59,835 bases of DNA, taken from an uncultured Bacteroidota bacterium (GTDB lineage: Bacteria; Bacteroidota; Bacteroidia; Bacteroidales; VadinHA17). The notes under the pieces are model-generated. The model did no database searches and was not told the origin of the DNA. It saw nothing but the letters and a program-made list of their open reading frames with translations. The first letter of the stretch is position 1. Each line of letters begins with the position of its first letter. The DNA lies in assembly GCA_903824785.1 (NCBI GenBank), contig CAIJYD010000020.1:1-59835 (forward strand), read 5' to 3'. Positions 240 to 39,300 of this stretch are shown one piece after another. The translations under genes were made by a program, and so were the position numbers.

Positions 240-347
240 AAAATGAGGATATAAAAAATTAGTAACAGTAAATATTTGAAAGGATGCAAGTTGCAATTAC
301 TATTAAGACAATAATACATACAAGTTTATAAACTAATCTTAATAAAT

Positions 348-1208
348 ATGAAAAGGAAACTACTATTTACAATTTTGGGAATTATTTCCCTATTGATTTT
401 TTCATGTGGTGGTGGTAAAACATTAAAAAAGCCATTAGCAATAAAACCAATGAAGACAAACTTGGTTGCTGATTTTGATGAGGATTGCAAACCAGAAAAT
501 AAAGATGATGCTGTTGCTAACTACATGGAAATAATTGATTCAAGTTATGCTATTACTCCAATTGACAATGGTAACAAATTGAGAGTCGATGTTATTGTTA
601 AGTCATTAAGGAAAGCAAAGAAAGATGATGAATTCAAGTTGTCAGATTACTATGCATGTGGAAGAACCTATTTATACCTAATTGACGATGCAGGTACACG
701 TTTAATGATGTCAGGAACATTTCTTGGAAGTTGGGATATCGTAAACTTTGAAGCATTTAAAGAATTTCTTTCAAACGATGAAAATCGATTTATGTTAAGG
801 TTTGAAATATATGCTGATTATATGGCAGAGCATTTAAAAACTCCTGAAAAAATAAAAGGTTTCATAATAACTTGTTCAGGCTATAAAATGACTGGTGAAG
901 AATTAAAATCACAATCTAATGAATCATCATCAACAAGCGTTAGTGTAAGTCCATCAAGTAATACAGGTAGTGAAAACTGGGATAATATTCTTAATTCCTA
1001 TGAGAAGTATATTACCCAATATATTTCTTTAATGAAAAAAGCCAATGCTGGGGATATGTCAGCCATGACTGAGTATGCTTCTATGATGGAAAAAGCAACT
1101 GAATTTGCAGATAAACTGGAAAACGCCAGTGATGATTTATCCACTGCTCAAATGGAAAGATTTACAAAACTGCAATTAAAATTAGCGAATGCAGCAGCAG
1201 GTCTCTAA
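348..1208 (+). CDS. exported lipoprotein with DUF6591-like C-terminal helical domain
   Basis: A 286-residue protein starts with a lipoprotein signal peptide: a hydrophobic core, then LIFSC with the lipid-anchored Cys at residue 20. The central part (about 40-185) is a mixed alpha/beta region I do not recognise. A Ser/Thr-rich linker (about 190-215) follows. The last 75 residues form an acidic helical domain (WDNILNSYEKY..., GDMSAMTEYASMMEKA) resembling the C-terminal domain of DUF6591 proteins found in many Bacteroidetes; that family name is from memory. The role is unknown, and the likely location is the periplasmic face or outer membrane. The gene is AT-rich compared with genes beyond 5 kb, consistent with the accessory patch. 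Confidence 0.75.
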   Translation: MKRKLLFTILGIISLLIFSCGGGKTLKKPLAIKPMKTNLVADFDEDCKPENKDDAVANYMEIIDSSYAITPIDNGNKLRVDVIVKSLRKAKKDDEFKLSDYYACGRTYLYLIDDAGTRLMMSGTFLGSWDIVNFEAFKEFLSNDENRFMLRFEIYADYMAEHLKTPEKIKGFIITCSGYKMTGEELKSQSNESSSTSVSVSPSSNTGSENWDNILNSYEKYITQYISLMKKANAGDMSAMTEYASMMEKATEFADKLENASDDLSTAQMERFTKLQLKLANAAAGL

Positions 1209-1288
1209 CTTAGGCATAGCAACACTCCATACTTCGTATAATTAGGATTAAATGGTTCGTATCAATAACAATTAAAAACAAAGTACTC

Positions 1289-1594
1289 ATGGAAAACAAA
1301 CAACCGCTACCAAATGCAGTAGCATCATTAATTTTAGGTATCTGTTCACTTCTCTTCGGATGTGTATTTGTTGGATTTATTTGTGGTATAATTGGCTTGG
1401 CGATATCTGGTGGGAGTAAGCGACTCTATTTACAGAATCCTGCTCAATATTCAGGATATGGTATGTTAAACGCAGGCAGGGTTATGTCAATCATTGGCAT
1501 AATTTTGGGTGCACTTGCCATTATTTGGACTATTGTTTGGGTAGCAATATTAGGTAATGGAATGTTTGAGTATTTGGATTTTCTGGGGTACTAA
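1289..1594 (+). CDS. small membrane protein, DUF4190 / CCC-motif type
   Basis: This 101-residue protein opens with a short polar segment ending LPNAVAS and has two hydrophobic hairpin regions (about 13-40 and 62-92). The first contains LGICSLLFGC and GFICGIIGLAI, as in DUF4190 or CCC-motif membrane proteins of Bacteroidetes. The stop overlaps the start of the next gene (TAATG, 1592-1596), so the two are translationally coupled. The function of this family is unknown. It often sits beside DUF2752 genes, as here. Confidence 0.7.
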   Translation: MENKQPLPNAVASLILGICSLLFGCVFVGFICGIIGLAISGGSKRLYLQNPAQYSGYGMLNAGRVMSIIGIILGALAIIWTIVWVAILGNGMFEYLDFLGY

Positions 1595-1902
1595 TGTACT
1601 GGCATCTGATTCTTTGGTTAAAAAATCATCTACTGCCTTGTCCATATAAACAAATATTTGGAATTGAATGTCCTGTATGTGGCTTCCAGCGTTCATTCAT
1701 TTCTTTATTAGAAGGGAACATTTCAGATTGTATTTTACAATTTCCTGCAATGTTCCCTTTAATCATTACATCAGTGTTGTTTTTGGTCTTATATCTTTTT
1801 AAATCGCAAAACAGAAAATTAATTATTCAGAAGGTACTTCTTTTCGATTTATCTATAATGATTATTAGTTGCTTGGTTAAAAACATTTTAAATATTTGTT
1901 AA
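1594..1902 (+). CDS. DUF2752 membrane protein
   Basis: This 102-residue protein carries the DUF2752 signature CPVCGFQRS (near residues 26-34) followed by two hydrophobic segments (about 48-66 and 80-100). An extra cysteine pair lies upstream (LPCPYKQIFGIEC). The family is a small, uncharacterised two-helix membrane protein whose CPxCGxxR motif may bind metal or be redox active. It overlaps the preceding DUF4190-like gene by one base and precedes the exported PsbP-like protein by 16 bases, so the three genes probably form one transcript. Confidence 0.8.
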   Translation: MYWHLILWLKNHLLPCPYKQIFGIECPVCGFQRSFISLLEGNISDCILQFPAMFPLIITSVLFLVLYLFKSQNRKLIIQKVLLFDLSIMIISCLVKNILNIC

Positions 1903-1918
1903 ACTACAATTCAGTATT

Positions 1919-2434
1919 ATGAAAAAGTATTTATTGTTTTTGTTAGTAGTTGCCTTTATAGGTGAAAGGCAAGTATATCCTCAGGAAAGTTCTGCAACAA
2001 AAACCCTGACATTTAAAAATTATTCAATTAGTTATCCAGCAGACCTACGTTTAGCAAAAAAGACAGAATCAGGAAATTTCATGCTACTTGTCACACCAAA
2101 AGAAGATATCTCTATGGTCATTATTGATTTATCACAATATCCATATGATGTTCCTCTAAAAGATTATGCAGAAAGTGCTATTGAGCAACTAAAGGAAGAA
2201 CACTTCACAACTGTTCTTGAAAACAAGGCTACAACAATTAATAATTTGCCATGTTGGAGATTTATCTGTGCATTTGATGATGGGCATGGTGAACTTCAAG
2301 CAAAAAGCATGTACCACATCTGGATAAAGAATAAATGGGCATATGTAATGATTTTAAATTCTGAACCGACCAATTTCGACAAACAAAAACTTATTGTACA
2401 AAAGATTGCTGGAACTTTCAAATATACCCATTAA
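1919..2434 (+). CDS. exported PsbP-like/DUF1795-type protein
   Basis: A 171-residue product has an N-terminal signal peptide (hydrophobic to about residue 15, then polar; cleavage probably near VYPQE) and a single domain starting TLTFKNYSISYPADL. The layout is a strand pair with YPADL, a mid-domain helix (LKDYAESAIEQL) and a C-terminal strand-helix ending IAGTFKYTH. This resembles PsbP-like / DUF1795 alpha-beta sandwich proteins, but the assignment is from pattern only. No catalytic residues are evident. It is probably periplasmic and the last gene of the DUF4190-DUF2752 transcript. Confidence 0.6.
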   Translation: MKKYLLFLLVVAFIGERQVYPQESSATKTLTFKNYSISYPADLRLAKKTESGNFMLLVTPKEDISMVIIDLSQYPYDVPLKDYAESAIEQLKEEHFTTVLENKATTINNLPCWRFICAFDDGHGELQAKSMYHIWIKNKWAYVMILNSEPTNFDKQKLIVQKIAGTFKYTH

Positions 2435-2464
2435 CAGAAGTTGTTTAACCCTTAATAATCTTCT

Positions 2465-2812
2465 TTACTGCTTTCTTAAAGCAATCATTTCTAAAGTTTG
2501 GAAATCAGCCAGACTCCATAACCACCAATCACCCAAATATTCCACATTCCACGACAAAGTATAGGTTCTGTCGGTTATGAGTTCCTGAACATCGAGAAAA
2601 ATGATGCCACCCTTTTCATAAAAATCAACGAGCCGTATTGCTGCAATGCACTCTCCTGCTACTTTCTTTTCAAGCAGCATGTACGGCATTTTACGGGTAA
2701 GCATCTTGCTTTTGGTAAGAATGAAAGGCATGTCAATCATTAATGAATCTGGCGAGAAATACCGCAAAACGCTCCTTCCTGAACTGTTTATGTATTCATT
2801 TACGTTCATCAT
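2465..2812 (-). CDS. hypothetical protein, 115 aa
   Basis: A 115-residue soluble protein with no signal peptide or membrane segment, which I do not recognise. It is rich in predicted strands, and WNVEYLGDWWLWSL near the C terminus is Trp-rich. Its ATG overlaps the stop of the upstream gene by four bases (2809-2812, ATGA), so the two are translationally coupled and probably form a two-gene unit. Such small coupled pairs in an accessory patch could be a toxin-immunity or phage-defence accessory pair, but nothing in the sequence proves this. Confidence 0.6.
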   Translation of the reverse strand: MMNVNEYINSSGRSVLRYFSPDSLMIDMPFILTKSKMLTRKMPYMLLEKKVAGECIAAIRLVDFYEKGGIIFLDVQELITDRTYTLSWNVEYLGDWWLWSLADFQTLEMIALRKQ

Positions 2813-3207
2813 AGTTCATTTCCAAGTTCACGAAGTTCTTTATCATTAAAGTCGGATGATAATTCTGAATACACAATGTCTTCAATATCTTTCCAGTTTA
2901 CCAAGAATACATTTGGATGTTTATTAGTTATAAGCAGACTGTATTCAGCCGAATTTCCAGTCATAGGATTTGTGAATGATAATAAAATAACTCCCTCTTT
3001 GTAATCAATGTTGTCCAAACTGTACAATCCGAAGCCGTCCTGATTTACAACCATGTACATCTGACCAAAATCAATACAATGATTTTTAGGGCGATTCAAT
3101 ATAAACTGAAGGTGCTTATATTCATCGGGGTATAATTCCATGTCCATTATCAGTTCATCCAGCGTGGCTGGGAATGTGTTGTCAATTGTTTGTTGTTTTG
3201 TTTTCAT
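2809..3207 (-). CDS. hypothetical protein, 132 aa
   Basis: A 132-residue soluble acidic protein. The first 45 residues look helical (TLDELIMDMELYPDEYKHLQ). The rest is strand-rich, with GFGLYSLDNIDY and NPMTGNSAEYSLL. I do not recognise a family. It is the first gene of a two-gene minus-strand unit with the 115-residue protein. No signal peptide or membrane segment is visible, so both products are probably cytoplasmic. Confidence 0.6.
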   Translation of the reverse strand: MKTKQQTIDNTFPATLDELIMDMELYPDEYKHLQFILNRPKNHCIDFGQMYMVVNQDGFGLYSLDNIDYKEGVILLSFTNPMTGNSAEYSLLITNKHPNVFLVNWKDIEDIVYSELSSDFNDKELRELGNEL

Positions 3208-3238
3208 AATGTAGATATTATATTGTACAGGAGACCTA

Positions 3239-3303
3239 CCCCACCGTAACCCCCGCTACGGGGCATCCCCATACAGTAGTGCCAAAATAAGCCGCTGGTG
3301 GGG
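3239..3303. repeat. GC-rich nested inverted repeats in AT-rich intergenic DNA
   Basis: CCCCACC (3239-3245) pairs with GGTGGGG (3297-3303). Between them CCCCG-CTA-CGGGG (3251-3263) forms a short hairpin. The segment is a GC-rich island in an AT-rich spacer, and a TGTACA lies just to its left (3224-3229). It may be an element scar or the terminator of a lost gene. The rest of the 3208-3467 spacer shows nothing else recognisable. Confidence 0.4.
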
Positions 3304-3467
3304 CGTATATTTCTCCGCTTATCTTTACTATAAATACAGGAAAAAAAGGATTCTGGTCAGTATTCAGAACTGTTTGAAACAGAAGTGATTAAAAATTCTG
3401 GAAAATATTTTTCAATAATGGAAGAATGACCTGAGAAAAATTTTTTAAAAATTTATAGACGAGCATA

Positions 3468-4265
3468 TTAAGAGATTTTAAAATTTCTTGAAACACCTAA
3501 TCCAAATAATGCAAAATCATATTTCACAGGGTCATTACGGTCAAATTGCCGAAGAACACCATCCAGTTCCAGTACTGCTTTTGCATCATTCTGTTTCCGA
3601 CAAAGCAAACCAAGTTTGCGTGCAATGTTCCCTGAATGAACATCAAGCGGACATGAAAGAATGGATTGTGGGATGTTTTTCCAGATGCCGAAATCCACGC
3701 CAGCATTATCTTGGCGAATCATCCATCTGAGGTACATATTGATTTTTTTCGCAGCAGAACCAGTCATTGGGTCAGGCAGATGCTTTCGTGTTCTTTCAAG
3801 ATGTGGGATATTAAAAAATTCCTTTTTTAGTTCATGAATAGCAGGCTGAAGCGAATCATGGGTCTGGTATTTCACAAATATACCTTCAAGTCCATTTTTA
3901 TCTTTGTACAAGTGCTTCAGACCCTCAATGAACGTCAACAGGTCACCCGAATTAAATGTTCGGTGCACAAAACCGTCCATCTTCTTTAACTGGTGCTCAT
4001 TGTGATTGCGAATGAAGTCATATGGTGATTCTCCCATGTATGCCAACATACGTTTTGCGTTTTTTACAATGGAAGTCCGATTGCCCCATGATATAGTTGC
4101 AGAAAGGAATCCTGATATTTCGATATCTTCCTTTCTGGTGTACGAATGTGGTATTTGTATCGGGTCGAGTTCAATGAATGTCGGATTGTTGTATTGAGCA
4201 ACCTTTTCATCAAGAAAATCCTTCAGTTCTTTCAATTCTTGTTCCATGCATATATCTTTACGCAT
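3468..4265 (-). CDS. TIGR02757/DUF2400 family protein, intact copy
   Basis: A 265-residue protein matches the TIGR02757 (DUF2400) family across its length: YTRKEDIEISGFLSATISWG near the N terminus, then GSAAKKINMYLRWMIRQ, LDVHSGNIARKLGL and the terminal DPVKYDFALFGLGV. The family has a helix-hairpin-helix-like fold related to DNA glycosylases, but its biochemical role is not established. The first Met is at 4265. Met7 at 4247 (MEQELKEL) is an equally good start and leaves a more typical N terminus. It lies head to head with a 3' remnant of a diverged second copy. Confidence 0.85.
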   Translation of the reverse strand: MRKDICMEQELKELKDFLDEKVAQYNNPTFIELDPIQIPHSYTRKEDIEISGFLSATISWGNRTSIVKNAKRMLAYMGESPYDFIRNHNEHQLKKMDGFVHRTFNSGDLLTFIEGLKHLYKDKNGLEGIFVKYQTHDSLQPAIHELKKEFFNIPHLERTRKHLPDPMTGSAAKKINMYLRWMIRQDNAGVDFGIWKNIPQSILSCPLDVHSGNIARKLGLLCRKQNDAKAVLELDGVLRQFDRNDPVKYDFALFGLGVSRNFKIS

Positions 4266-4314
4266 GGCAAAAATACTAATAATGACAAGGGTTTCCTACG
4301 CTACCTTAATTATC

Positions 4315-4584
4315 CGTCTCAACATGTACCTGAGGTGGATGGTCAGAAAAGATGACAGAGGCGTTGATTTCGGTATCTGGAAGACTATTTCTCCTTCAAC
4401 CTTATCCTGTCCGCTGGATGTGCATTCGGGTAATGTTGCCCGAAAACTTGGATTAATAACCCGAAAGCAGAATGATTCTAAAACTGTAGCCGAACTGGAT
4501 ATGAATCTGAGGGAACTGGATAAAGAAGACCCTGTTAAATATGATTTCGCTTTGTTCGGGCTAGGCGTTTTTGAAGGGTTTTGA
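4315..4584 (+). pseudogene. 3' remnant of a second TIGR02757/DUF2400 gene
   Basis: From about 4315 the + strand encodes the last 88 residues of a DUF2400 protein: RLNMYLRWMVRKDDRGVDFG, LDVHSGNVARKLGLITRKQN and YDFALFGLGVFEGF, ending at TGA 4582-4584. The first two-thirds of the gene are missing. The open frame extends back to an ATG at 4246, but those residues show no family similarity and lie over the start of the intact copy. The remnant resembles the intact copy clearly but with many substitutions, so it is not a recent duplicate. It probably marks where the AT-rich patch joined the ancestral chromosome. Confidence 0.8.
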
Positions 4585-8470: not shown

Positions 8471-9307
8471 TTAATACTCTTCCGGCAATGATAAGATCTG
8501 CTCGTAACTGAAGACAGGGCCGTCCTTGCAGACAAAAACCTTTCCTACATTACATCTTCCGCATTTTCCGAAACCGCATTTCATTCTGTTTTCCAGGGTT
8601 GTGTAAATATCTTTATCCTGAAATCCGAGTTTTTTCAATACAGGCATTGTGAATTTTATCATTACCGGCGGGCCGCAAAGAATTGCGATACAGTTCTCTG
8701 AGGATGGGGCTGCTTTCTCAAGAACCATCGGAACAAAACCTGTTTCACCCTTCCAGTCGGGTGTCTGTCCTCCCGGATCAACTGTAGTTATCATTTTAAT
8801 GTCCGGTCTTTCGCTCCACTCTTTCAGTTCCTGTTTGTAAACCAGGTCACCCACAGTACGGGCGCCATATACTATAGTAATATCTTTGTACTTATGGCGA
8901 AGGTCTATTGTATTCCATATTACGCAACGCATTGGAGGCAAGGCTATTCCTCCTGCTATATATAAAAGGTTTTTACCTTCCCATTGTTCAATAGGAAAGG
9001 TGTTTCCATAAGGGCCTCTGAAACCGACAGTATCGCCTACTTCAAGGTTTGCCAGTGCATTTGTAACACGACCTGCTTTCCGGAATGTACATTCAATATA
9101 CTCTTTCCGGGTAGGAGATGAGGCAATACAGAAAGTTGACTCCCCTTCGCCAAATACGGAGTACTCACCAAACTGGCCTGCTTTGAAGGAGAATTTTTCA
9201 GCATCCTCAGGATTTTTAAATATTAACCGGAATGTTCTGACATCAGGAGTCTCTTCAACAATGCTCCCTATCTTCATCAGGTAAGGTTTATATATATTTT
9301 CAGCCAT
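8471..9307 (-). CDS. flxA: FlxA/FloxA: FAD-NAD(P)H-binding oxidoreductase subunit
   Basis: This 278-residue protein has a ferredoxin-reductase layout. An FAD-binding barrel with FKAGQFGEYSV and CTFRKAGRVTNAL comes first, then a nucleotide-binding domain with GGIALPPMRCVI and LCGPPVMIKF. A C-terminal iron-sulfur motif, CGFGKCGRCNVGKVFVC, ends the protein. The family includes hydrogenase gamma (HydG), AsrB and FlxA subunits. As the NADH-facing subunit of FlxABCD it should pass electrons from NADH into the Hdr complex. It is the last gene of the eight-gene operon, 12 bases after flxB. The AsrB reading is unlikely because no sulfite reductase subunit is present. Confidence 0.85.
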   Translation of the reverse strand: MAENIYKPYLMKIGSIVEETPDVRTFRLIFKNPEDAEKFSFKAGQFGEYSVFGEGESTFCIASSPTRKEYIECTFRKAGRVTNALANLEVGDTVGFRGPYGNTFPIEQWEGKNLLYIAGGIALPPMRCVIWNTIDLRHKYKDITIVYGARTVGDLVYKQELKEWSERPDIKMITTVDPGGQTPDWKGETGFVPMVLEKAAPSSENCIAILCGPPVMIKFTMPVLKKLGFQDKDIYTTLENRMKCGFGKCGRCNVGKVFVCKDGPVFSYEQILSLPEEY

Positions 9308-9319
9308 TGTGTAATCTGA

Positions 9320-10330
9320 TTAAATGTTTTGTAATGCTTCCAATTGCTCTGCTATGTTCATATCTACCGGGCAACCACTTGAGCAACGGCCGCAACCGAC
9401 ACATCCCAGTGATTCATTCCTGTCGGGCATGTAGGAAAATTTATGCATTATCCTCTGCCTCCATCTCTGGCTCTGAACATGACGCGGATTATGACCGGAG
9501 GTATGAAGCGTGAACAAGCCAAAGCCGCAGGAATCCCAGCTCCGGTAGCGTTTCCCGTTCTTCCCTTTGGTTTCGTCCTGGATATCAAAACAGGCACAGG
9601 TAGGGCAGACATAGGCACAAGCTCCGCATCCGATACACCTGAGTGAGTTGGCAATCCAGAATTCATGCTCAAATGCACCGGCTAATTTTTCAGTTACCTG
9701 CTTATGGCTGAATTTCTGTTTTACTTCAGTGATATCAACTTTTTCGTCTGTTAATGGTTCAAATAAATCCGGAAAAGAAGATACTATCTCATTTCCCTTT
9801 GCAGTAAGTATTTCAGCCTGATAATCACCTGTTTGCAATTTTGTCAGCAAAATATCGCTCCCTCTGGACGACGAAGGGGAGAGTCCCACTGATGTACAGA
9901 AACAATATTCATCACTGCTGTGGCATCCAAGGCCGATAACCGTCAGCTTTTCGAGACGTCTGGAAAAGAACTCATCTTTTGTATCCCAGCAGAATATTGA
10001 CCGGAGAGTATCAAATGCTGCATTATCGCAGGGATGTGCTCCCCACAGAACTACTTCCGGGATTTTATCTAAATCGATATCTGTAATAGTACTTTCAGTC
10101 TTACTGTTCTCATAAAAAAAGAGGTTCTCCACTTTTGGAAAAACAATATTCTTAACAGAGAGGGTAGATCTGATATGATCAAAAGTTACATCAGCAAAAC
10201 CTGGGTTGTATTTATATTCGGCCTTTTTATCAGCTGCAATAACCGGGGCATACACTTTACGGTTTGCCGCTAAATTATTGTACAGCTTTTCCAGCGACTG
10301 CTTCCGGATTAATTTCCTGATTGTTTCCAT
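9320..10330 (-). CDS. flxB: FlxB/FloxB: 4Fe-4S dicluster electron-transfer subunit
   Basis: This 336-residue protein has two ferredoxin-type clusters: CIGCGACAYVCPTCACFD (near residue 232) and CVGCGRCSSGCPVDMNI near the C terminus (about 312-328). The N-terminal 220 residues resemble the beta subunit of sulfhydrogenases and AsrA, including LWGAHPCDNAAFDTL. It should carry electrons between FlxA and the remaining iron-sulfur subunits. It is 1 base downstream of flxC and 12 bases upstream of flxA, so the three are tightly coupled. Confidence 0.82.
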   Translation of the reverse strand: METIRKLIRKQSLEKLYNNLAANRKVYAPVIAADKKAEYKYNPGFADVTFDHIRSTLSVKNIVFPKVENLFFYENSKTESTITDIDLDKIPEVVLWGAHPCDNAAFDTLRSIFCWDTKDEFFSRRLEKLTVIGLGCHSSDEYCFCTSVGLSPSSSRGSDILLTKLQTGDYQAEILTAKGNEIVSSFPDLFEPLTDEKVDITEVKQKFSHKQVTEKLAGAFEHEFWIANSLRCIGCGACAYVCPTCACFDIQDETKGKNGKRYRSWDSCGFGLFTLHTSGHNPRHVQSQRWRQRIMHKFSYMPDRNESLGCVGCGRCSSGCPVDMNIAEQLEALQNI

Positions 10331-10331
10331 G

Positions 10332-11135
10332 TTAAACTATAAAGCTTTCTTTATCATTAGGTTCATACGTTGACATCACCGAATTCATTTTCTCTGAGGT
10401 GCCTGCATATACTTTGAAATAGTTATAGACCTGATCAGTAAGGTGCATTGTGAGAAGGTGGCATGGGATACCTACAGGACATGCTCTCCCGCATTCTCCA
10501 CAGCTTATGCACCGACCAGCCAGATGCATTGCCCTGAGTATGTGCCATTCCATATTCCCGTGAGCATTCGACTGAACAGAAATCCACTGCGGCTGATTCA
10601 CCTCCACAGTGCAACGGGTACAGTAACACATAGGGCATGCTTGCCGGCAGGCATAACATTTAATACATTTTGAGAGCTCTTTCTGCCAGTATTCAAATTT
10701 CTCTGCAGGAGTAAGCTTCTTAAGCTCTGCCAGCAGTTCTTTATATTTCACTGGATTGCTCAGGTCTGACTTGTCAATATAGCCCTGCATAACGCTGAGA
10801 TCTGCAATATCAAGTAATACGCCATCGGCAGAGATTCCAAGAACAACAATCTCGTCGTAGGAGATCTGCTGCTCGGATATCAGCATCATAATACTTCGCA
10901 TAACCGGAAGAGAGGAGACAATAGCGATCCGGCCAAGATGCTTAACCTCAGGTTTTGTGAGATAAACTGCCAGGTTCTGCACACAACGTTCATCGTAGAT
11001 AAGACTGTCGGCGTTTGCCGGGTCGGAAATAAAAGCGGGACGAACGACACCGGTTGGACCGGCTTCATAGCCAATTACCACTTGAACTGTTTTATTTTCA
11101 AGCAGCTCTTTTGCCCTTAATATCAGATTATCCAT
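10332..11135 (-). CDS. flxC: FlxC/FloxC: 4Fe-4S dicluster protein
   Basis: This 267-residue protein has an N-terminal domain resembling the F420-hydrogenase beta (FrhB) superfamily. Two cluster motifs follow: CIKCYACRQACPMCYCTRC (about residue 157) and CISCGECGRACPVGIPC (about 208). The first is unusual for its number of cysteines. It overlaps mvhD/flxD by 8 bases (11128-11135). In characterised FlxABCD-HdrABC complexes this subunit is an internal electron relay; the assignment here rests on motif pattern and gene order. Confidence 0.82.
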   Translation of the reverse strand: MDNLILRAKELLENKTVQVVIGYEAGPTGVVRPAFISDPANADSLIYDERCVQNLAVYLTKPEVKHLGRIAIVSSLPVMRSIMMLISEQQISYDEIVVLGISADGVLLDIADLSVMQGYIDKSDLSNPVKYKELLAELKKLTPAEKFEYWQKELSKCIKCYACRQACPMCYCTRCTVEVNQPQWISVQSNAHGNMEWHILRAMHLAGRCISCGECGRACPVGIPCHLLTMHLTDQVYNYFKVYAGTSEKMNSVMSTYEPNDKESFIV

Positions 11136-11580
11136 TTTTCACCTCCTCTTCAACTGACTTGTTGACAAGCTCTTTGTATGAGACATACGGTCCCAGTTCG
11201 CGGATTCTTGTAACAGTTGTGTTTACCACTTCTGCCCATCTGGCACCTTCCGCAGCCGAAACCCACGAAAAAGTGATTCGGCTCATATCTATTCCCATAA
11301 AGTCCATCAGCTCTTTAAACATTATCCAGCGGCGCTTTGCGTGAAAGTTACCCGATGTATAATGACAGTCGTTCGGATGGCAGCCTGATACGATAATTCC
11401 ATCGGCTCCATTGGAAAATGCTTTAAGAAGCAGCATAAAGTCAATTCGTCCGGTACAGGGGAAGCGTATAATCTTTACATTGGAGGCATACTTAATACGG
11501 CTGGTCCCGGTTAAATCGGCGCCGGCGTAAGTACACCAGTTACAAACGAAGGCTACAATTTTTGGTTCAAAATCTGACAT
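11128..11580 (-). CDS. flxD: MvhD/FlxD: hydrogenase iron-sulfur (delta) subunit
   Basis: This 150-residue protein is a clear MvhD-family member: CNWCTYAGADLTGTSR at the N terminus, FPCTGRID, then SGCHPNDCHY. MvhD binds an iron-sulfur cluster and links the electron-donating module (a hydrogenase in methanogens, FlxABC here) to HdrA. No [NiFe] hydrogenase gene is present, so the donor here is expected to be NADH through FlxA. It lies 38 bases downstream of hdrA and overlaps flxC. Confidence 0.9.
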   Translation of the reverse strand: MSDFEPKIVAFVCNWCTYAGADLTGTSRIKYASNVKIIRFPCTGRIDFMLLLKAFSNGADGIIVSGCHPNDCHYTSGNFHAKRRWIMFKELMDFMGIDMSRITFSWVSAAEGARWAEVVNTTVTRIRELGPYVSYKELVNKSVEEEVKNG

Positions 11581-11618
11581 ATAATTTTCTTTAAAGAAGA
11601 AATGAGCTATTTAATATA

Positions 11619-13622
11619 TTAATATTCATTAAGCAAGGCGACTACTTCAGCGTAGACCTGTGTATTTGAATATCCGAGTAAATCAATTGATTTTGAGCGA
11701 CATAAAGCAACACAAGTACCACATCCCTGACAAAGTCCCTCATTTATTTTCGCAACTGTTTTCACAACTTTGCCATCGCGGGCTTTGAACTCTTCGCGTT
11801 CGATGGCCTGGTAAGGACATACTGACTGGCACATAAAGCAACCTACACAGGTAGAATAGGTCGGAGGCGAGGTACGGTTTACTATAGCTACCAGCGGTTC
11901 GCGCGTCAGTTCGCTTTGTGAAAATAGTGCAGCAACTTTTACAGCTGCCCCTGAGGCCTGCGACACTGCATCGGGAATGTCTTTTGGATTCTGACAGGCA
12001 CCTGCTAAAAATATTCCTGCTGTATTTGTTTCAACAGGCTTTAGTTTCGGATGAGCTTCAGCAAAAAACTTATGAGAATCGTACGACACATGCAACTTTT
12101 GTGCGAGATCCTCCGCTCCTGAACTGGCCACTCCTGCTGTGGCTAATACCACCATGTCAGCAACGATTTCAACCTGTTGTGCACCAAGAAGCGTATCAAC
12201 ACCCTTGACAATCAGTTTACCATCGCGCTCAAAAACCGTGGAGACCCTTCCCCGTATATAATTTACATGATCTTCTTCAATAGCTCGGCGGACAAACTCA
12301 TCGTAGTTTTTTCCTCCCGATCTGATATCCATATAGAAAACGTGGGCCTTCCCTTCATGAACCTTATGTTTATAGAGCATTGCATGTTTAGCTGTGTACA
12401 TGCAGCATATCTTTGAGCAGTAAGCAATCCCTTTTGCCGGATCGCGCGAACCTGCGCAGGCGATAAATACAATATTCTTCGGAATCTCTCCGTCGGAAGG
12501 TCTTTTTATTACACCTGCCGTCGGGCCTGAAGCAGAGGCTAACCGCTCAAACTGAAGTCCGTCAATAATATCTTTGTATCTGCCGTGACCATATTCAGGG
12601 AAAAAATCAGCGTGTTTGATATCGAAGCCGGTGGCAACAACTATTGCTCCTATTTCAAGTTCAAGGATCTCATCGGGCTGGTCGAAACGGATTGCTTTAG
12701 TAGGGCAGACAATCTCACAAATCTTGCATTTACCTTTTATATAATAGGTGCAATTCTCTCTGTCGATAACAGGTCTGTTGGGAACTGCCTGTGGAAAAGG
12801 AACATAGATAGCCGGACGCATTCCCATTCCCTGTTCAAACTCGTTCGGGATCTTCTTTTGCGGACATTTGGTTGTGCATAAACCACAACCCGTGCACGCC
12901 TTTTCATCGAGACTCTTAGCCTTTTTACGGACTTTTACCTTGAAATTGCCGATGAATCCCTCCACACTTTCAACTTCAGCATAGGTGTAAAGAGTGATAT
13001 TAGGGTGCTGAGCCACCTCAACCATCCTCGGTGTAAGGATGCACTGTGAGCAATCGAGGGTAGGAAATGTTTCGGACAGCTGCGACATATGTCCACCGAT
13101 GGAAGGTGATCTTTCGATCATTATAACTTTATGGCCGGTGTTTGCAATGTCAAGTGCCGATTGTATTCCCGCTATGCCTCCACCGATTACCATAGCAGTT
13201 TTTGTAACAGGAACTTTAATAGGCTGAAGGGCAGAATTCAGCTTGACCTTTTCTACCTGTGTTCTGACTATATCTATTGCCTTCTCAGTTGTCAGTTCAT
13301 TTTTCTCATGAACCCAGGAGCAATGTTCGCGCAGGTTAGCCATTTCGCACAGGAAGGGGTTTAATCCGCCTTCAGCACAGGCTTTCCTGAAAGTAGGTTC
13401 GTGCATCCTCGGAGAGCAGGCAGAGACAACAACCCCGGTAAGGTTATGCTCTTTAATGGCATCCTTAATCAGAGTCTGTCCCGGATCGGAACACATATAT
13501 TTATACTCGGTGCTGTAGGCAACATGCTTTAAATTACCGATGGTTTCCGCAACCTTCCCGCAATCGACTGTTGCACTAATATTTTCACCGCAATGACAAA
13601 CAAAAACACCTATTCTGGCCAT
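11619..13622 (-). CDS. hdrA: HdrA: flavin and iron-sulfur subunit of heterodisulfide-reductase-like complex
   Basis: This 667-residue protein has the HdrA layout: an N-terminal domain with scattered cysteines (SACSPRMHEPTF), a FAD-binding fold GGGIAGIQSALDIANTG (about 148), a cysteine pair LDCSQC, and a ferredoxin domain CTGCGLCTTKCPQKK with a second CKICEIVCPTKAI. A C-terminal ferredoxin pair has CVGCFMCQSVCPYQAI and CQGCGTCVALCRSKSI. HdrA holds the bifurcating FAD in methanogen and bacterial Hdr complexes. No in-frame UGA (selenocysteine) is needed. The length fits the single-chain bacterial/archaeal HdrA class. Confidence 0.92.
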   Translation of the reverse strand: MARIGVFVCHCGENISATVDCGKVAETIGNLKHVAYSTEYKYMCSDPGQTLIKDAIKEHNLTGVVVSACSPRMHEPTFRKACAEGGLNPFLCEMANLREHCSWVHEKNELTTEKAIDIVRTQVEKVKLNSALQPIKVPVTKTAMVIGGGIAGIQSALDIANTGHKVIMIERSPSIGGHMSQLSETFPTLDCSQCILTPRMVEVAQHPNITLYTYAEVESVEGFIGNFKVKVRKKAKSLDEKACTGCGLCTTKCPQKKIPNEFEQGMGMRPAIYVPFPQAVPNRPVIDRENCTYYIKGKCKICEIVCPTKAIRFDQPDEILELEIGAIVVATGFDIKHADFFPEYGHGRYKDIIDGLQFERLASASGPTAGVIKRPSDGEIPKNIVFIACAGSRDPAKGIAYCSKICCMYTAKHAMLYKHKVHEGKAHVFYMDIRSGGKNYDEFVRRAIEEDHVNYIRGRVSTVFERDGKLIVKGVDTLLGAQQVEIVADMVVLATAGVASSGAEDLAQKLHVSYDSHKFFAEAHPKLKPVETNTAGIFLAGACQNPKDIPDAVSQASGAAVKVAALFSQSELTREPLVAIVNRTSPPTYSTCVGCFMCQSVCPYQAIEREEFKARDGKVVKTVAKINEGLCQGCGTCVALCRSKSIDLLGYSNTQVYAEVVALLNEY

Positions 13623-13642
13623 CTTAAATAATATTTTCCTCT

Positions 13643-14488
13643 TTAACTGATTTTAACCTCAACAAAATGTCGTTTCAAACCAACCTTTTCCGCAGGTAAT
13701 CCTATTGCCAGGCCAATAGCCTGAGTAACAAAGATTACAGGAATCTTGTATTTTGCTTTCCAGTATTTATTAATATCCGGTCGTCTCATATCAAGATTTG
13801 AATGGCACATAGGGCATGCAACAATTATAGCCTCGGCGCCCCTGTGTTCGGCATCTTCAATAATCTTCCCTGAAAGTTTTGATACAATATCGGTACGGGA
13901 AATTGATAACCCGGCACCGCAGCATTCAGTTTTAAAAGGATAGTCGACAGGAGCAGCACCGATTTTACTCATCACAATATCAAGAGTCTGAGGATCTTCA
14001 GCACGATCATAATTAAGGATCTTATCGGGTCGAACGAGAAGGCAGCCATAATAGCAGGCAACCTTATGGTTGAATGGCTTAACTATCTTTTCCTCAAGCT
14101 TCGGAATGATATATTTATCAATCCATTCAATAACATTTAATATTACAGATGTGCCGCGGTAGTCCATTTCAATTACCTCGCAGATACGGTTTTTTAGTTC
14201 CGGATCTTTTTTCAGTTCATGTTGTGTAACCACAAGGCGGCTGTAGCAGGCAGCACAAGGAACAATGATCTCTTCAAGTCCGTTTTTCTCAGCAAGTGCC
14301 AGTATGCGGGCAGGAAGTGCAAGTGATAACTCTTTATTGAGGTTGTGGGCAGCAGTAGCTCCGCAACAGTTCCAGTCAGGAATCTGAGTAAACTCCAGCC
14401 CAAATGCCTCCGCAATGGCAAAAACTGATTCATTATAGTCTCGTGCAGAACCGGTTAACGAGCATCCGGGATAAATGCCAAATTTCAT
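13643..14488 (-). CDS. hdrB: HdrB: non-cubane iron-sulfur catalytic subunit
   Basis: This 281-residue protein has both CCG domains intact. The first is Cys9, Cys41-Cys42-Gly and CAAC (about 78-81). The second is CYYGC (about 149-153), ECCGAG (about 193) and CPMC (about 231-234). In HdrB these bind two non-cubane [4Fe-4S] clusters that split a disulfide. The physiological disulfide is unknown here, because CoM-S-S-CoB is a methanogen cofactor. It lies 10 bases downstream of hdrC and 20 bases upstream of hdrA. Confidence 0.92.
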   Translation of the reverse strand: MKFGIYPGCSLTGSARDYNESVFAIAEAFGLEFTQIPDWNCCGATAAHNLNKELSLALPARILALAEKNGLEEIIVPCAACYSRLVVTQHELKKDPELKNRICEVIEMDYRGTSVILNVIEWIDKYIIPKLEEKIVKPFNHKVACYYGCLLVRPDKILNYDRAEDPQTLDIVMSKIGAAPVDYPFKTECCGAGLSISRTDIVSKLSGKIIEDAEHRGAEAIIVACPMCHSNLDMRRPDINKYWKAKYKIPVIFVTQAIGLAIGLPAEKVGLKRHFVEVKIS

Positions 14489-14498
14489 ATATGCCTCC

Positions 14499-15059
14499 TT
14501 AAGTTCTTGTTTTTTTAAATATTCTGGCGATATGAGCAGTACCTTTAATCATAGTGGGGAAGAGATGCAGTTTGCCTCTTGAAATCATTTTCGGGGCAAG
14601 TGAAATATCCTGGGTCATATTCAGCGACTGACGTTTATAATCGAGAATAAGCCCGAGTTCGTACAATCTGCCGGTAAATCTTATTGAGTTCAGAAAAGAT
14701 TTATGGAAAGCGATAATGTTCTTTGCCTTTTTATTAACCTTTTTCTCTTTTCGGGCTCTTTGCCTTAAATAATCCATCATCGAAGGAATATCTATTTCCA
14801 TAGGGCAACGGCTCAGGCACATTTCACAGGTTACGCAAAGCCATATTGCATGAGATCTGAGAATCCTCTCGTCATTAGCAGGCTCTTCAGTCTGAAGAAG
14901 GCGCATCACCATGCTTGGAGGGAGGTCCATCTCATCAGCTACCGGGCAGCCTGCAGTACATTTGCCGCACTGATAACATTTATGAGCTTGTACTTCAACA
15001 CTCTTTTCCACACTGCCTGCCAGTGTATTTCTTTCAGTATGATGTTCGGAATGAGACAT
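14499..15059 (-). CDS. hdrC: HdrC: 4Fe-4S subunit
   Basis: This 186-residue protein has two [4Fe-4S] motifs, CYQCGKCTAGCPVADE (about 28-43) and CVTCEMCLSRCPMEIDIP (about 74-91), as in HdrC. The C-terminal 80 residues are basic and helical, ending RIFKKTRT. It transfers electrons between HdrA and HdrB. It lies between the DHOD-like gene (20 bases) and hdrB (10 bases). Confidence 0.9.
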   Translation of the reverse strand: MSHSEHHTERNTLAGSVEKSVEVQAHKCYQCGKCTAGCPVADEMDLPPSMVMRLLQTEEPANDERILRSHAIWLCVTCEMCLSRCPMEIDIPSMMDYLRQRARKEKKVNKKAKNIIAFHKSFLNSIRFTGRLYELGLILDYKRQSLNMTQDISLAPKMISRGKLHLFPTMIKGTAHIARIFKKTRT

Positions 15060-15079
15060 TTTTATACTTTAAATATGTG

Positions 15080-16123
15080 TTATTCAATACTTGAAAAAAG
15101 ACGCAGAAACTGTACCCGTTCATACGACGCAGGGTTATGTACATTCTTCCTGCTTAACAGACCTTTAAAATCAGAAATGCTTTTATAATTATGCGAGGTC
15201 ATCCAGTTTTCCATTCCTGACAGGATCTGAGGAAGAACATCAAAATGATGTGATGGATTTTTATAAAATACCGATACCAGATGAACAGCATCGGCACCTG
15301 CCAGCAATTGCTTAATAACTGTTTGGTGGTTATGTATTCCGGTAGAGGCGGCAATATTGCATTTAAGCCTTCCTGACATAAGTGCAACCCACCTGAGTGA
15401 ATGAGAGTATTCCGTATCGCTGCTGAACATATTGGAAGAGGTGACCTGAAGATTTTCTATATCAATATCAGGGTTGTAGGGCCTGTTGAAAAGAGTTAAT
15501 CCTGCAATACCTGTTTCAGAAAGTTTCAGTAGTGTCTGCGCAAGACTTGAGAAATAATATCCTGTTTTCAGGGAGACCGGTATGGTGACAAATTTTTTAA
15601 CTTCCTCAATAATACTGAAATAAACATTTTCATTTTCAATACCATCCTTGTCAAAATCAGATGGGAGAAGATAAACATTGAGTTCAAGTGCATCAGCTCC
15701 GGCCTCCTCAATACGTTTTGCAAAATACTGCCAATCGTACTGCGTGCTGCAGTTAATACTTGCAATAACCGGAATAGAGATATTCTTTTTGGCCTCGGAT
15801 ATCAATGAGAGGTAATGGTTCAGAGTATGTTCTTTAGCATAATTTGTCAGATACTCAAATGCCTCATCATAATAAAATTCAGTTTTGCTGACAATACCCT
15901 GGAATGCTTTCTGCCATGATTTCATTTCCGGATTATCTGACTGAAGAAATTTATCAGCCTCATATTTTATCTGTTCCTCAAAGATAGATTTAAGGACAAC
16001 CGCCCCTGCTCCCATCTGAGCTATAGTCTTAAGCTTATCGATGGAAGAAGTTAAACCAGAGCTTCCTACTACCAGGGGGTTCTTTAATTCAAGTCCAAGA
16101 TATTTGCATGAAAGATCAACCAT
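15080..16123 (-). CDS. dihydroorotate-dehydrogenase-like flavoprotein
   Basis: This 347-residue TIM-barrel protein starts MVDLSCKYLGLELKNPLVVGSSGLT-like (residues 1-25; key LKNPLVVGSSGLT), as in class 1 DHOD and dihydropyrimidine dehydrogenase. It also has SIPVIASINCST and a C-terminal phosphate-binding region STGIHNHQ / LLAGADAVHL. The stretch that carries the catalytic Cys/Ser loop in true DHODs (ELN-V/L-SCPN) reads ELNVYLLPSD here. It is therefore probably not pyrimidine-biosynthetic PyrD. It is the first gene of the hdr-flx operon with a good promoter 23 bases upstream. A role as an FMN redox partner is inferred from context only. Confidence 0.8.
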   Translation of the reverse strand: MVDLSCKYLGLELKNPLVVGSSGLTSSIDKLKTIAQMGAGAVVLKSIFEEQIKYEADKFLQSDNPEMKSWQKAFQGIVSKTEFYYDEAFEYLTNYAKEHTLNHYLSLISEAKKNISIPVIASINCSTQYDWQYFAKRIEEAGADALELNVYLLPSDFDKDGIENENVYFSIIEEVKKFVTIPVSLKTGYYFSSLAQTLLKLSETGIAGLTLFNRPYNPDIDIENLQVTSSNMFSSDTEYSHSLRWVALMSGRLKCNIAASTGIHNHQTVIKQLLAGADAVHLVSVFYKNPSHHFDVLPQILSGMENWMTSHNYKSISDFKGLLSRKNVHNPASYERVQFLRLFSSIE

Positions 16124-16303: not shown

Positions 16304-16335
16304 AAAAAAAAGGCTGCCTAAGAAAGACAGCCTTT
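16304..16335 (-). terminator. rho-independent terminator of secDF
   Basis: On the minus strand AAAGGCTG pairs with CAGCCTTT (arms 16328-16335 and 16309-16316), with an 11-base loop and a following run of seven T (16304-16310 on the + strand as A). It lies 20 bases beyond the secDF stop. Confidence 0.85.
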
Positions 16336-36328: not shown

Positions 36329-39300
36329 TCAATATCTTTTTAGCACTACAAAACCACTCTTCTTGAAAACCTGCCCGTTTCCTTTTGAAGTTATTTTAAG
36401 CAGATAATAATATGTCCCTTCCGGAAGGTCAAGCCCTTTGGAGTTGGTTCCATCCCAGTCAGTCCATTCCTCCCCGTCAAGATTGGTTGTCGAAAAAATC
36501 TCTGATCCTGCTCCGTTAACTATTTTCAACTCAGCTGTCTGGTTCTGCAGATCCAGACCGGCTACAATAAATTTATTGTTGTAATTGCCCGGATCGTTAT
36601 TTGGAGAAAATCCTTCAGGAATGGCAATTTCATAAACATCAACATTTACTATATCCTCAGATTTACAGGGCCCATTTGTTGTTGTCCACAAATAGCTGTT
36701 TTTACCTTTTGAAATATTTCTGACTGATGTACGATTATCTCTATAATCATCAAAATCGCCGGTTCCGCTTACCAGGGTCCATTTTCCAGTTTCCCAAGTA
36801 AACAGAGGAGAGGCGACCATGTGAATTATATAATCAAATGTAAAAAATGTGGTGTCAGGACCGGCATTAATGGTGCTTGATGGAAGAGAATGTATTAATA
36901 TTTCTGAAGTGTTTGAAATACTTGAACAGCAATCATTTGCTCCTGATTTTACAATACGCTTGTATTTCATGGGAACCGTAAGCGATGGTGGCTGATAATT
37001 TCCTGAAGATGAGTTATTGGCGCCATCAGCAGAAGTCCAGACTGATCCATCGGTGCTCTGCTCCCATAAAAACAGATATGACCCGGGACCGGCACCTCCT
37101 GAAAGAGTAGCACCTGTAAGAAGAGCAGGTGCGGTATTGGAGCAGATAGTTTCCCCAGCCGGAATATTATTATTTGTTATAACCGGCAACACTGTTACAG
37201 CAATAACTGAACTGCTTATTTCGGTACAACTTCCTGATATTACACGGCGTTTATAATATGTTGTTGTTGTGAGTGCTGCAGGCTGGTAATTAATACCCGT
37301 GGCTCCTGAAAGCACAGGGTTCCAGCTGGTATTATCGTTAGAATACAACCACTGGTAGGCATAACTGTCAGAAATTCCGGTGCCTCCGTTCGCAATAGTT
37401 CCTTTAAACCTGTTTGGAACTGCTCCGTTACAGATCGTTGTATCAGCAGAGGCAACTGCAAGAAGGGAGATGTTATTGTTCATTATTGGCTTATGAACAT
37501 TAAGCCTTACCGGAAAGCTGGTATTTGTACATTTAGATGAATTGACAACTCTCCTGAACCAGGTAGTATCTGTAAGTGCTGAAGGAGAAAAACTGAAATC
37601 GGCAGTGGCTTTCGTTGTCCATGTACTGACTTTTGAACTGTCCTGCCACATATAGGTATAGATACCGGAGCCCTGTGACGGAACTGAGCCCGAAAGAGGC
37701 AGAGGAGCGCTGCCAGAGCATATCGTCTGGTCGGCAAGTATTGAATTCGTTTTTATCTTATGGTATCTTATCAGCTGGATAGGTGAGCTGTTATTCCTGC
37801 AAACATTATCGGGACCTGAAAAGACGACCCGTCTGAAATATCTTTTTTCAATAACCGAAAACACTGAAGTATCAGGGGAATAGGAGAGCGCATCATTTGT
37901 ATTTACGGAGGCACTCCACAAACCTGTGGCCGTACTGTCCTGCCACTGATATTTATAAGCAAGGTCACCTCCTCCGGCAGCTGATGCTCCAAGGGTATTG
38001 AAAAGAGCTCCTTCACAAATTACTGAATCGGGCCTGGAAGTTAAGTTTCCGGATATGGAAGGAAGAACCGTAATTTTCACAGAAGGGCTGTAATCAATAC
38101 AACGTCCCGATGTAACAACCCGTGTATAATAAGTTGTGCTTGTCAGAACCGGAGGGTCATAATCCGGCTCTGTTATAACTGTTCCTGCTGCATCTGGAGA
38201 GCTGGTCCATCCTGTATTTGTACTGTTTTCAATCCATTTATATTCATATACCCCGTTGCCCTTTGCAGGGCCGCTATTCTGACTGACCAAACTTAACGGA
38301 TTCTGATTAAAGCAGATAACAGTATCTTTCCCGACAAGATTTCCGGTAATGGCAGGTTGAACCAATATATTCACCCATTTACTGGTGTCAGTAAGTGATG
38401 TCCCGTTATCTTTTACTATCCTTCTGAACCATACTGTATCATTTTCAGTTGCTTCAGGTAAATAATTAATTGTATTGGAGGAGGGGATATTTGAAACCGG
38501 CCCTGAAAGATTATAACTCTTCTGCCATAAGTAAGTATATGAGCCTGAACCACCAACAGGCATTGTTCCTGTTATCTCCTTAGGTATTACATTTGAGCAA
38601 ATTGAATCAATCTGGTTACCGGTAACTGAAGAGCGGATTGAGTTAAAAAGGAATCCGTTCAGAACTGGTACGAACAAGGTGCGAATCTCTCCGACGGAAC
38701 CTGCTCCCCCGGTCGATCCGCCTGTTCTTGATCCTGCTGCTCCCCCGGAAACCGTTCTGGAAACATTTGATAAAATGGGAATATTGCTGACATTAATCAG
38801 GCCGCCTCCACCTCCTCCGCCTTCTCCGAATGTTCCTGAGTTATTCCCTCCTTTTCCGCCATTAGCAGAAATTGACAAAACAGATGGCAAAAAGCTCTGA
38901 AGATAAATGGTAACTGAACCTCCGCCTCCGCCACCACCGGAACCGGCACTGGATGATGCCTGTGACGCGGAAGTTCCATTTGAGATAATGCTCTTCCCGT
39001 TACCTTCAATAGATTCTGATATTATTATGATTATTCCTCCTCCATTACCTCCTGGTGAAGGTGCCGAGCCTAAAAGATAAGATGACGACCCACCGCCACC
39101 TCCAAGGAAAAATCCCGGATCAAGCGGAGTGAGTTTCAGCTGTATTCCACCACGTCCACCATCGGCCCTGACATAGAGAGGGAAACAATCGCTGTTTTCC
39201 AGTCCCCCTTTTCCGCCTGCACCATAGTTTGAGCCACCGCCTCCGCCGGAAAATCTCCCGTTTCCTCCGCCACCCCCTGTCAGGTTTGCGCCCTTTCCTT

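Follow-up and report, generated by a model that had tools for sequence, protein, structure and literature searches.

The locus described here raises the question of what job an HdrABC-FlxABCD complex (Hdr-Flx) does in a member of the Bacteroidales, and with which partners it exchanges electrons. The genes lie on the minus strand between positions 8471 and 16123 of a contig of 59,835 nucleotides (CAIJYD010000020.1; this whole stretch is called the window below) from an uncultured bacterium of the lineage VadinHA17. Gene content, conserved residues and the gene order of relatives speak, with modest confidence, for the reading that Hdr-Flx makes reduced ferredoxin from NADH and in this way feeds a headless complex I, a form without NuoE, NuoF and NuoG.

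Eight closely set minus-strand genes fill the interval from 16123 to 8471. A gene for a protein resembling dihydroorotate dehydrogenase (DHOD) comes first, followed by hdrC, hdrB, hdrA, flxD, flxC, flxB and flxA (15059–8471), all seven with intact frames. The intergenic gaps, calculated from the coordinates, are 20, 10, 20, 38, −8, 1 and 12 bp from the DHOD-like gene to flxA. The preliminary description had presented the interval as an operon of seven genes in tight order: the seven intact open reading frames, their domains and the recurrence of the order elsewhere agree with this, but the interval actually begins with the eighth, DHOD-like gene (16123–15080), which had been overlooked.

Pfam, NCBIfam and PDB sequence matches concur with the gene names, flxC being weak by domains. 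The product of hdrC (14499–15059, 186 aa) has two 4Fe-4S motifs (Fer4_8, 3.9e-11), that of hdrB (13643–14488, 281 aa) two CCG domains (PF02754, 1.4e-23 in two stretches), while hdrA (11619–13622, 667 aa) would encode the subunit of flavin-based bifurcation and flxD (11128–11580, 150 aa) an adaptor like MvhD and FlpD (PF02662, 1e-49). The assignment of flxC (10332–11135, 267 aa), a putative 4Fe-4S protein, comes mainly from its place in the conserved order, Fer4_9 (2e-7) being its sole domain match. FlxB (9320–10330, 336 aa; PF17179, 9.8e-33) is a 4Fe-4S protein related to AsrA and to the sulfhydrogenase beta subunit (9nez_B of sulfhydrogenase I, 3.1e-42), and FlxA (8471–9307, 278 aa; PF00175, PF10418, PF00970) a module related to PyrK and the gamma subunit (9nez_C of sulfhydrogenase I, 1.9e-64). 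It carries NAD, FAD and 2Fe-2S domains of the NAD(P)H type, which do not tell NADH and NADPH apart.

HdrA could be aligned with the methanogen HdrA structure 5odc_A over residues 3–662 (697.8 bits). Its residues K412, E359, C389, C402, C406 and C407 face K409, E356, C386, C399, C403 and C404 of the structure, and all six were invariant in the nine aligned HdrA sequences, that of the window included. The four cysteines near the bifurcation lysine and glutamate presumably have a role there as well. The pair K409 and E356 of the Methanothermococcus thermolithotrophicus HdrA has been proposed to tell bifurcating from non-bifurcating HdrA (PMC12054007, in the part available). Both CCG domains are present in HdrB, where ten cysteines face cysteines of 8rvu_b, and the cysteines of FlxD are aligned with those of 7bkb_F (MvhD, 1e-45). 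The two CCG sites of HdrB, the flavin fold of HdrA and the NADH module of FlxA, reported earlier as intact, are so by the Pfam domains and by the alignments with 8rvu_b, 5odc_A and 9nez_C, and the key cysteines are in place. The scores stayed below the cut-offs of the methanogen models in NCBIfam: HdrA reached 763.8 against 1100 with HdrA2 (a model of the kind 'exception'), and 568 against 1300 and 567 against 1400 with equivalogs. The top row for HdrC was HdrC (65 bits, cut-off 270), and for HdrB the MFR subunit SdhE (183.7, cut-off 500) followed by HdrB (170.5, cut-off 345). The genes are predicted to encode a soluble Hdr-Flx complex of a known kind. No hydrogenase or dsrC gene adjoins the operon among the open reading frames and families examined, as had been noted before; alcohol dehydrogenase, included in the same statement, was not searched for by model.

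Of the genome-wide search for partners proposed in the preliminary description, the part carried out gave no DsrC, and the genome proved to hold NifJ, FeFe hydrogenases, Rnf and a headless Nuo. DsrC (PF04358) had no match in the genome, which is 97.83% complete, while the E. coli control was positive; DsrC as the high-potential acceptor, as in the Desulfovibrio model, was therefore rejected, and the acceptor in this genome is not DsrC. NifJ was found once above the cut-off, likewise once in each of 16 genomes, the FeFe-hydrogenase domain had five matches, and RnfC was found once above the cut-off. None of the NuoF matches passed the cut-off; of the six below it, three were on contigs with FeFe-hydrogenase matches and one on the RnfC contig. 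The headless complex I is encoded by eleven genes, nuoABCDHIJKLMN, placed behind truA on contig C99 (locus L172), and neither NuoE, NuoF nor NuoG had a match in this cluster, NuoE and NuoG not being searched for across the whole genome. Also observed in the genome were a second set of HdrC-, HdrB- and HdrA-like genes together with a 634-aa membrane protein with CCG-type motifs (contig C52, L175 6943–11995), and a cluster resembling group 4 hydrogenases and complex I (contig C101, L173 1586–10887). This cluster encodes three NuoL-like proteins and one each of the NuoD and NuoB type, and its NuoD-like protein, as judged by eye, lacks the hydrogenase cysteine motifs.

The connection between Hdr-Flx and headless complex I is seen in the gene order of relatives. 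Within the genus but outside the subclade of the window, hdrC is divergent from nuo in all twelve genomes with a visible upstream flank (L146, L147, L149–L156, L187 and L189, subunits being named for L149). In ten of these nuoD is directly followed by nuoH without EFG, and in the other two (L146, L151) the contig stops at nuoB. The sample of the wider order included 33 near loci, whose FlxD is 70% identical or more, and seven more distant ones, and nuo was joined to Hdr-Flx in five of the near loci (G522, G621, G588, G672, G555) and in one of the distant (G652, FlxD 63%); nuo genes at all these loci were identified by similarity to proteins of the genus, so that distant nuo types may have escaped notice. 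In G522 the order hdrCBA-nuoABCDHIJKLMN-flxDCBA on one strand places eleven nuo genes inside the apparent operon. In G672 and G652 nuo is directly downstream of flxA, in G555 the DHOD-like gene stands between flxA and nuo, and in G621 and G588 the nuo genes precede flxD on contigs that end before the EFG status is visible. NuoE, NuoF and NuoG were absent between nuoD and nuoH in G522, G672, G555 and G652. Altogether the nuo junction was found in five families and three layouts, the headless layout being verified in four families.

Linkage with nuo requires at least five changes on the HdrA tree (64 rows), one linked row being the 14-subunit case L099 and some rows counted as unlinked having short flanks; a count of changes on a larger row set left out rows without readable flanks. 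Small proteins beside nuoN, which look alike by eye, were observed at L172 (2114–2467, 117 aa) and L231 (7547–7981, 144 aa, between nuoN and flxD), neither with an NCBIfam match. A set of ExbB/ExbD/TonB type, recognised by similarity, recurs near Hdr-Flx in several families (L225, L227, L228, L237, L242–L244) and is found also near the headless nuo genes of the window's own genome (L172).

The two systems also occur together within the genus, where headless Nuo was found in 17 of the 19 genomes bearing Hdr-Flx and in none of the eight lacking it (Fisher 2e-5). The tests of Nuo and Rnf covered 27 of the 36 same-genus genomes, leaving out G396, G414, G415, G421, G422, G424, G426, G428 and G429. 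G420 was scored as positive for Hdr-Flx because hdrC adjoins nuo where its contig ends (L187), FlxD not being found there, and G409 as negative, its 49% FlxD-like match lying in another HdrA setting (L159). Headless Nuo was scored in G400 and G427 by nuoB at contig ends, not by NuoD, and the count excluded NuoD-like proteins about 400 aa long.

By the favoured reading, FlxA would oxidise NADH and the electrons would run via FlxBCD to the flavin of HdrA, from where one electron would go down to ferredoxin and the other via HdrC and HdrB to an acceptor of higher potential. The reduced ferredoxin, or the complex itself, would then feed the headless complex I (nuoABCDHIJKLMN), as the gene order of relatives suggests, and this enzyme would reduce menaquinone and pump protons; the reverse direction is possible. 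A bifurcating enzyme that passes electrons from NADH to ferredoxin would, as a partner, close the gap on the donor side of headless complex I. The enzyme of Bacteroides fragilis does not use NADH, its natural donor being described as unknown (PMC7002350, in part), and cyanobacterial headless enzymes take ferredoxin, as has been hypothesised also for Moorella (PMC13040438, in part). The operon has an NAD(P)H/FAD module, and the ferredoxin-related job suggested in the preliminary description is likely. The metabolic job, which was called open there, is less so than stated, since Hdr-Flx is joined to headless complex I in some relatives.

The best local candidate for a partner of the HdrB arm may be the DHOD-like flavoprotein, although this is a guess. 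Its gene (15080–16123, minus strand, 347 aa; NF005741/PRK07565) probably opens the unit, lying 20 bp upstream of hdrC, and the protein scored 396.4 bits with NF005741 against a cut-off of 303. The predicted model is a TIM barrel of the FMN type (mean pLDDT 79), with dihydropyrimidine dehydrogenase and DHOD as the nearest structures. In DHODB the active-site loop carries a catalytic cysteine. In a weak alignment the SCPN of 1ep1_A faces VYLLP in the window's protein, leaving the active-site cysteine without a counterpart, and all the scores with PyrD equivalogs were below the cut-off. The protein is probably not a true DHOD, because the catalytic-cysteine loop of DHODB appears to be replaced; a weaker, separate DHOD-like match of 73 bits on contig C99 of the same genome is probably the pyrimidine gene.

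Whether this protein has anything to do with the complex was judged from its neighbourhoods. It could be a core flavoprotein whose gene ended up next to hdrC as a passenger, with no role in the complex, and this is a serious alternative, if on balance not quite the probable one. NF005741 was above the cut-off in all 16 tested same-genus genomes, four of them without Hdr-Flx, and such proteins were found also at other sites with different neighbours. The DHOD-like gene adjoins Hdr-Flx, however, in five families and in three layouts: before hdrC (all five genomes of the window subclade, and L208 of another family), in the gap between flxA and nuoA (L226) and convergent to flxA (L223, L228). This adjacency needs at least three changes on the HdrA tree. 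Moreover, the copies of the four Hdr-Flx-negative genomes all fall into a separate clade (one copy each, the second copies of G398 and G416 being excluded). In another set, of 88 loci outside the genus, the DHOD-like/hdrC junction was found in none, and a search of the protein against viral contigs gave no match. In other phyla pyruvate:ferredoxin oxidoreductase is a fixed neighbour of the DHOD-like gene. This enzyme (NifJ) was rejected as a fixed neighbour here, as it is on another contig in 15 of 16 genomes and about 443 kb away in G404.

Several observations weigh against a coupling of Hdr-Flx with headless complex I. All five genomes of the window subclade keep the two clusters apart, with truA directly before nuoA (L172, L182–L185) and Hdr-Flx elsewhere, and 28 of the 33 near loci have no nuo gene in the fetched stretch, several of these being on short contigs. 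In the distant copy L099 Hdr-Flx precedes a complex I that has NuoE, NuoF and NuoG, an arrangement not expected if Hdr-Flx simply replaced the NADH module, and in G394, of the same order, the NuoCD-fused complex I does not adjoin the Hdr-Flx genes. Within the genus G401 and G406 have Hdr-Flx without the headless type. The genus counts also share ancestry: a NifJ tree (one gene, 16 genomes) gives just two to five changes per trait, and the differing contrasts on it all have the same direction but number fewer than six, with neither trait significant after correction. Finally, seven of the eight genomes lacking Hdr-Flx, and several that have it, hold another complex-I-like cluster, whose NuoD is about 400 aa long, so that these seven do possess an enzyme of the Nuo kind.

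This other cluster, which was not found in the window's genome, has the layout H-B-C-D-L-K-L, and in six of the seven fetched loci it is preceded by distant FlxB- and FlxA-like genes (24–26% and 37–41% identity, respectively). These six loci (L254 and L256–L260, of G423, G416, G404, G398, G395 and G403) belong to genomes with and without Hdr-Flx. The cluster possibly encodes a membrane enzyme with a Flx-like NADH module, in which case the pairing of such a module with a Nuo-like membrane enzyme would have arisen also in another form.

Hdr-Flx could also be of the ordinary sort, oxidising NADH with ferredoxin and a disulfide or thiol protein solely for the fermentation balance, with headless complex I as a mere neighbour. 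We regard this as credible but unlikely. The separation of nuo from Hdr-Flx in the window, in its subclade and at most of the near loci is what would be expected from it, and NifJ and the five FeFe-hydrogenase domain matches would offer ferredoxin partners; the recurrence of the junction in five families and three layouts, one of them with nuo inside the operon, is not accounted for.

Less probable still is a role as a substitute for Rnf, or operation in the reverse direction, by which the complex would exchange electrons between ferredoxin and NAD with no step at the membrane. RnfC was above the cut-off in all eight same-genus genomes lacking Hdr-Flx versus six of the 19 bearing it (Fisher 0.0019), and the genomes of syntrophs, Desulfovibrio excepted, are said in work cited by PMC5736913 to hold either Rnf or 'Hdr-IFO'. 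The window's genome, on the other hand, holds both Rnf and Hdr-Flx, and 11 of the 13 Rnf-less genomes have a canonical complex I, which could alone explain the loss. Canonical complex I was recognised by NuoF above the cut-off in ten of the 11 and in G425 by a partial NuoF together with a NuoD that passed the cut-off; one Rnf-bearing genome has it also by NuoF. As this confounding is joined by too few independent changes, fewer than six pairs in the tree-based test, and by a completeness under 90% in some of the 13 genomes, the loss of Rnf is kept only as a rival to the coupling with headless complex I.

The occurrence of such a complex in Bacteroidetes, which the preliminary description held to be remarkable, proved to be nothing unusual: Hdr-Flx is not rare here. 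FlxD of the window was matched (E up to 1e-20) in 72 of 393 same-order genomes, and a FlxD at least 70% identical was present in 35 of the 393, the own genome included, from 25 families. Bacteroides oleiciplenus and Segatella paludivivens are among the cultured carriers of the operon, which is present in several Bacteroidales bins too. Over the phylum PF02662 (FlpD) was matched in 114 of 395 genomes, all of them, besides the window's and the same-order G394, listed as other classes. The complete seven-gene order was detected by tblastn in 39 of 80 named loci, which are the best 80 of at least 587 candidate stretches, in eight of 20 phylum-survey loci and in 21 of the 33 near same-order loci. 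Of the other named loci 18, often on short contigs, showed a fragment of the order and 23 a different one, mostly hdrB-hdrC-hdrA in Bacillota. Since the gene order is conserved across loci, the arrangement of the operon is not due to chance. Among the deviating loci, L058 has hdrCBA at 325–3813 and no flx genes in the next 10 kb, and in L059 (2861–4675) hdrA and flxD are separated by a gene for an S9-type peptidase.

In the HdrA trees the window is placed among the Bacteroidales copies and grouped with other Flx/Hdr copies, which answers, for HdrA, a phylogenetic check proposed in the preliminary description; the rows of these trees all came from searches for relatives of HdrA or FlxD, far groups not being included. 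HdrA of the same-order genome G394 is almost identical to that of Segatella paludivivens, by which the order would probably be the Bacteroidales. The window subclade and the nuo-linked members of the genus form two separate clades in the HdrA trees, while they are interleaved in the NuoD tree, in which many forks are weakly supported. A single operon relocating within the genus from nuo to the DHOD-like gene is not supported by these trees, and two acquisitions or an old duplication of Hdr-Flx would fit the trees better.

FlxABCD-HdrABC of Desulfovibrio was reportedly described by Ramos et al. in 2015. This system, called 'Hdr-IFO' in the part of PMC5736913 available, has the same seven subunits as the operon of the window, and Bilophila is named as having the order hdrCBA-flxDCBA (PMC12125255, in part). 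The window's genome differs from the Desulfovibrio system in lacking DsrC and in having a DHOD-like gene in front of hdrC; in some of its relatives headless complex I is a neighbour as well. The methanogen complexes MvhAGD-HdrABC and Fdh-Hdr (5odc, 8rvu, 7bkb) are similar in HdrA over its full length, in the bifurcation residues and in the cysteines of HdrB and MvhD, but the window has an NADH-type module instead of a hydrogenase or formate dehydrogenase one, and its scores are below the cut-offs of the methanogen models. In Moorella, which also has headless complex I, Hdr of the HdrABC-MvhD-MetVF complex is proposed to pass electrons to a flavoenzyme (PMC13391211 and PMC13040438, both in part), whereas the flavoenzyme of the window is DHOD-like, not MetF, and the link is known here from gene order alone.

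Complex I without NuoEFG is a trait shared with the headless NDH-I of Bacteroides and Prevotella (PMC7002350 and PMC6560451, in part). The headless type linked to Hdr-Flx has nuoC and nuoD separate (NuoD 374 aa), whereas the type of G394 has a NuoD frame of 523 aa, taken as a NuoCD fusion. In Nuo-Bfu, too, a bifurcating module is proposed to replace NuoEFG on complex I (PMC9304861, in part), but there the module is the HydBC-like BfuABC and here it would involve HdrA. In its furthest form the coupling would make Hdr-Flx and headless complex I one energy-conserving system, in which HdrA splits the electrons of NADH, the low-potential half passing to complex I by ferredoxin or, in a supercomplex, by direct docking. 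The high-potential half would leave via HdrB for the DHOD-like protein, which would reduce an organic substrate, and bifurcation would so replace the NADH module. We consider this improbable in its entirety. The open-licence PMC literature gave no recognised report linking Hdr-Flx to headless complex I in Bacteroidales, which is no proof of absence. The complex itself is of a known kind; new is its context, with the DHOD-like gene at its head and a link to headless complex I that recurs among relatives.

Some other features of the window were also noted. A terminator-like hairpin with an 11-pair stem and a T run (16309–16335, minus strand) was found by a consensus scan between secDF and the DHOD-like gene, the region having seven such sites against a shuffle mean of 7.2, i.e. 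no excess. A gene of the TIGR02757 family (3468–4265, minus strand) overlaps a 112-aa frame on the opposite strand (4246–4584, plus strand). This frame shares 71% identity with a portion of the very gene it overlaps, which points to a partial inverted duplication. Two successive minus-strand genes (36329–40024 and 40098–43793) are each exactly 1231 aa long, the first matching the N-terminal model of the gliding protein AgmC below the cut-off.

For the Bacteroidales, the gene order in some members offers Hdr-Flx as a concrete candidate for the donor of a headless complex I related to that of B. fragilis, although Bacteroides without Hdr-Flx would still require another donor. As for the missing high-potential acceptor, a first clue comes from the DHOD-like flavoprotein. 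If the coupling is true, it would be a second route, besides Nuo-Bfu, by which a bifurcating module replaces the NADH module of complex I, and Hdr-Flx would gain a role outside sulfur metabolism.

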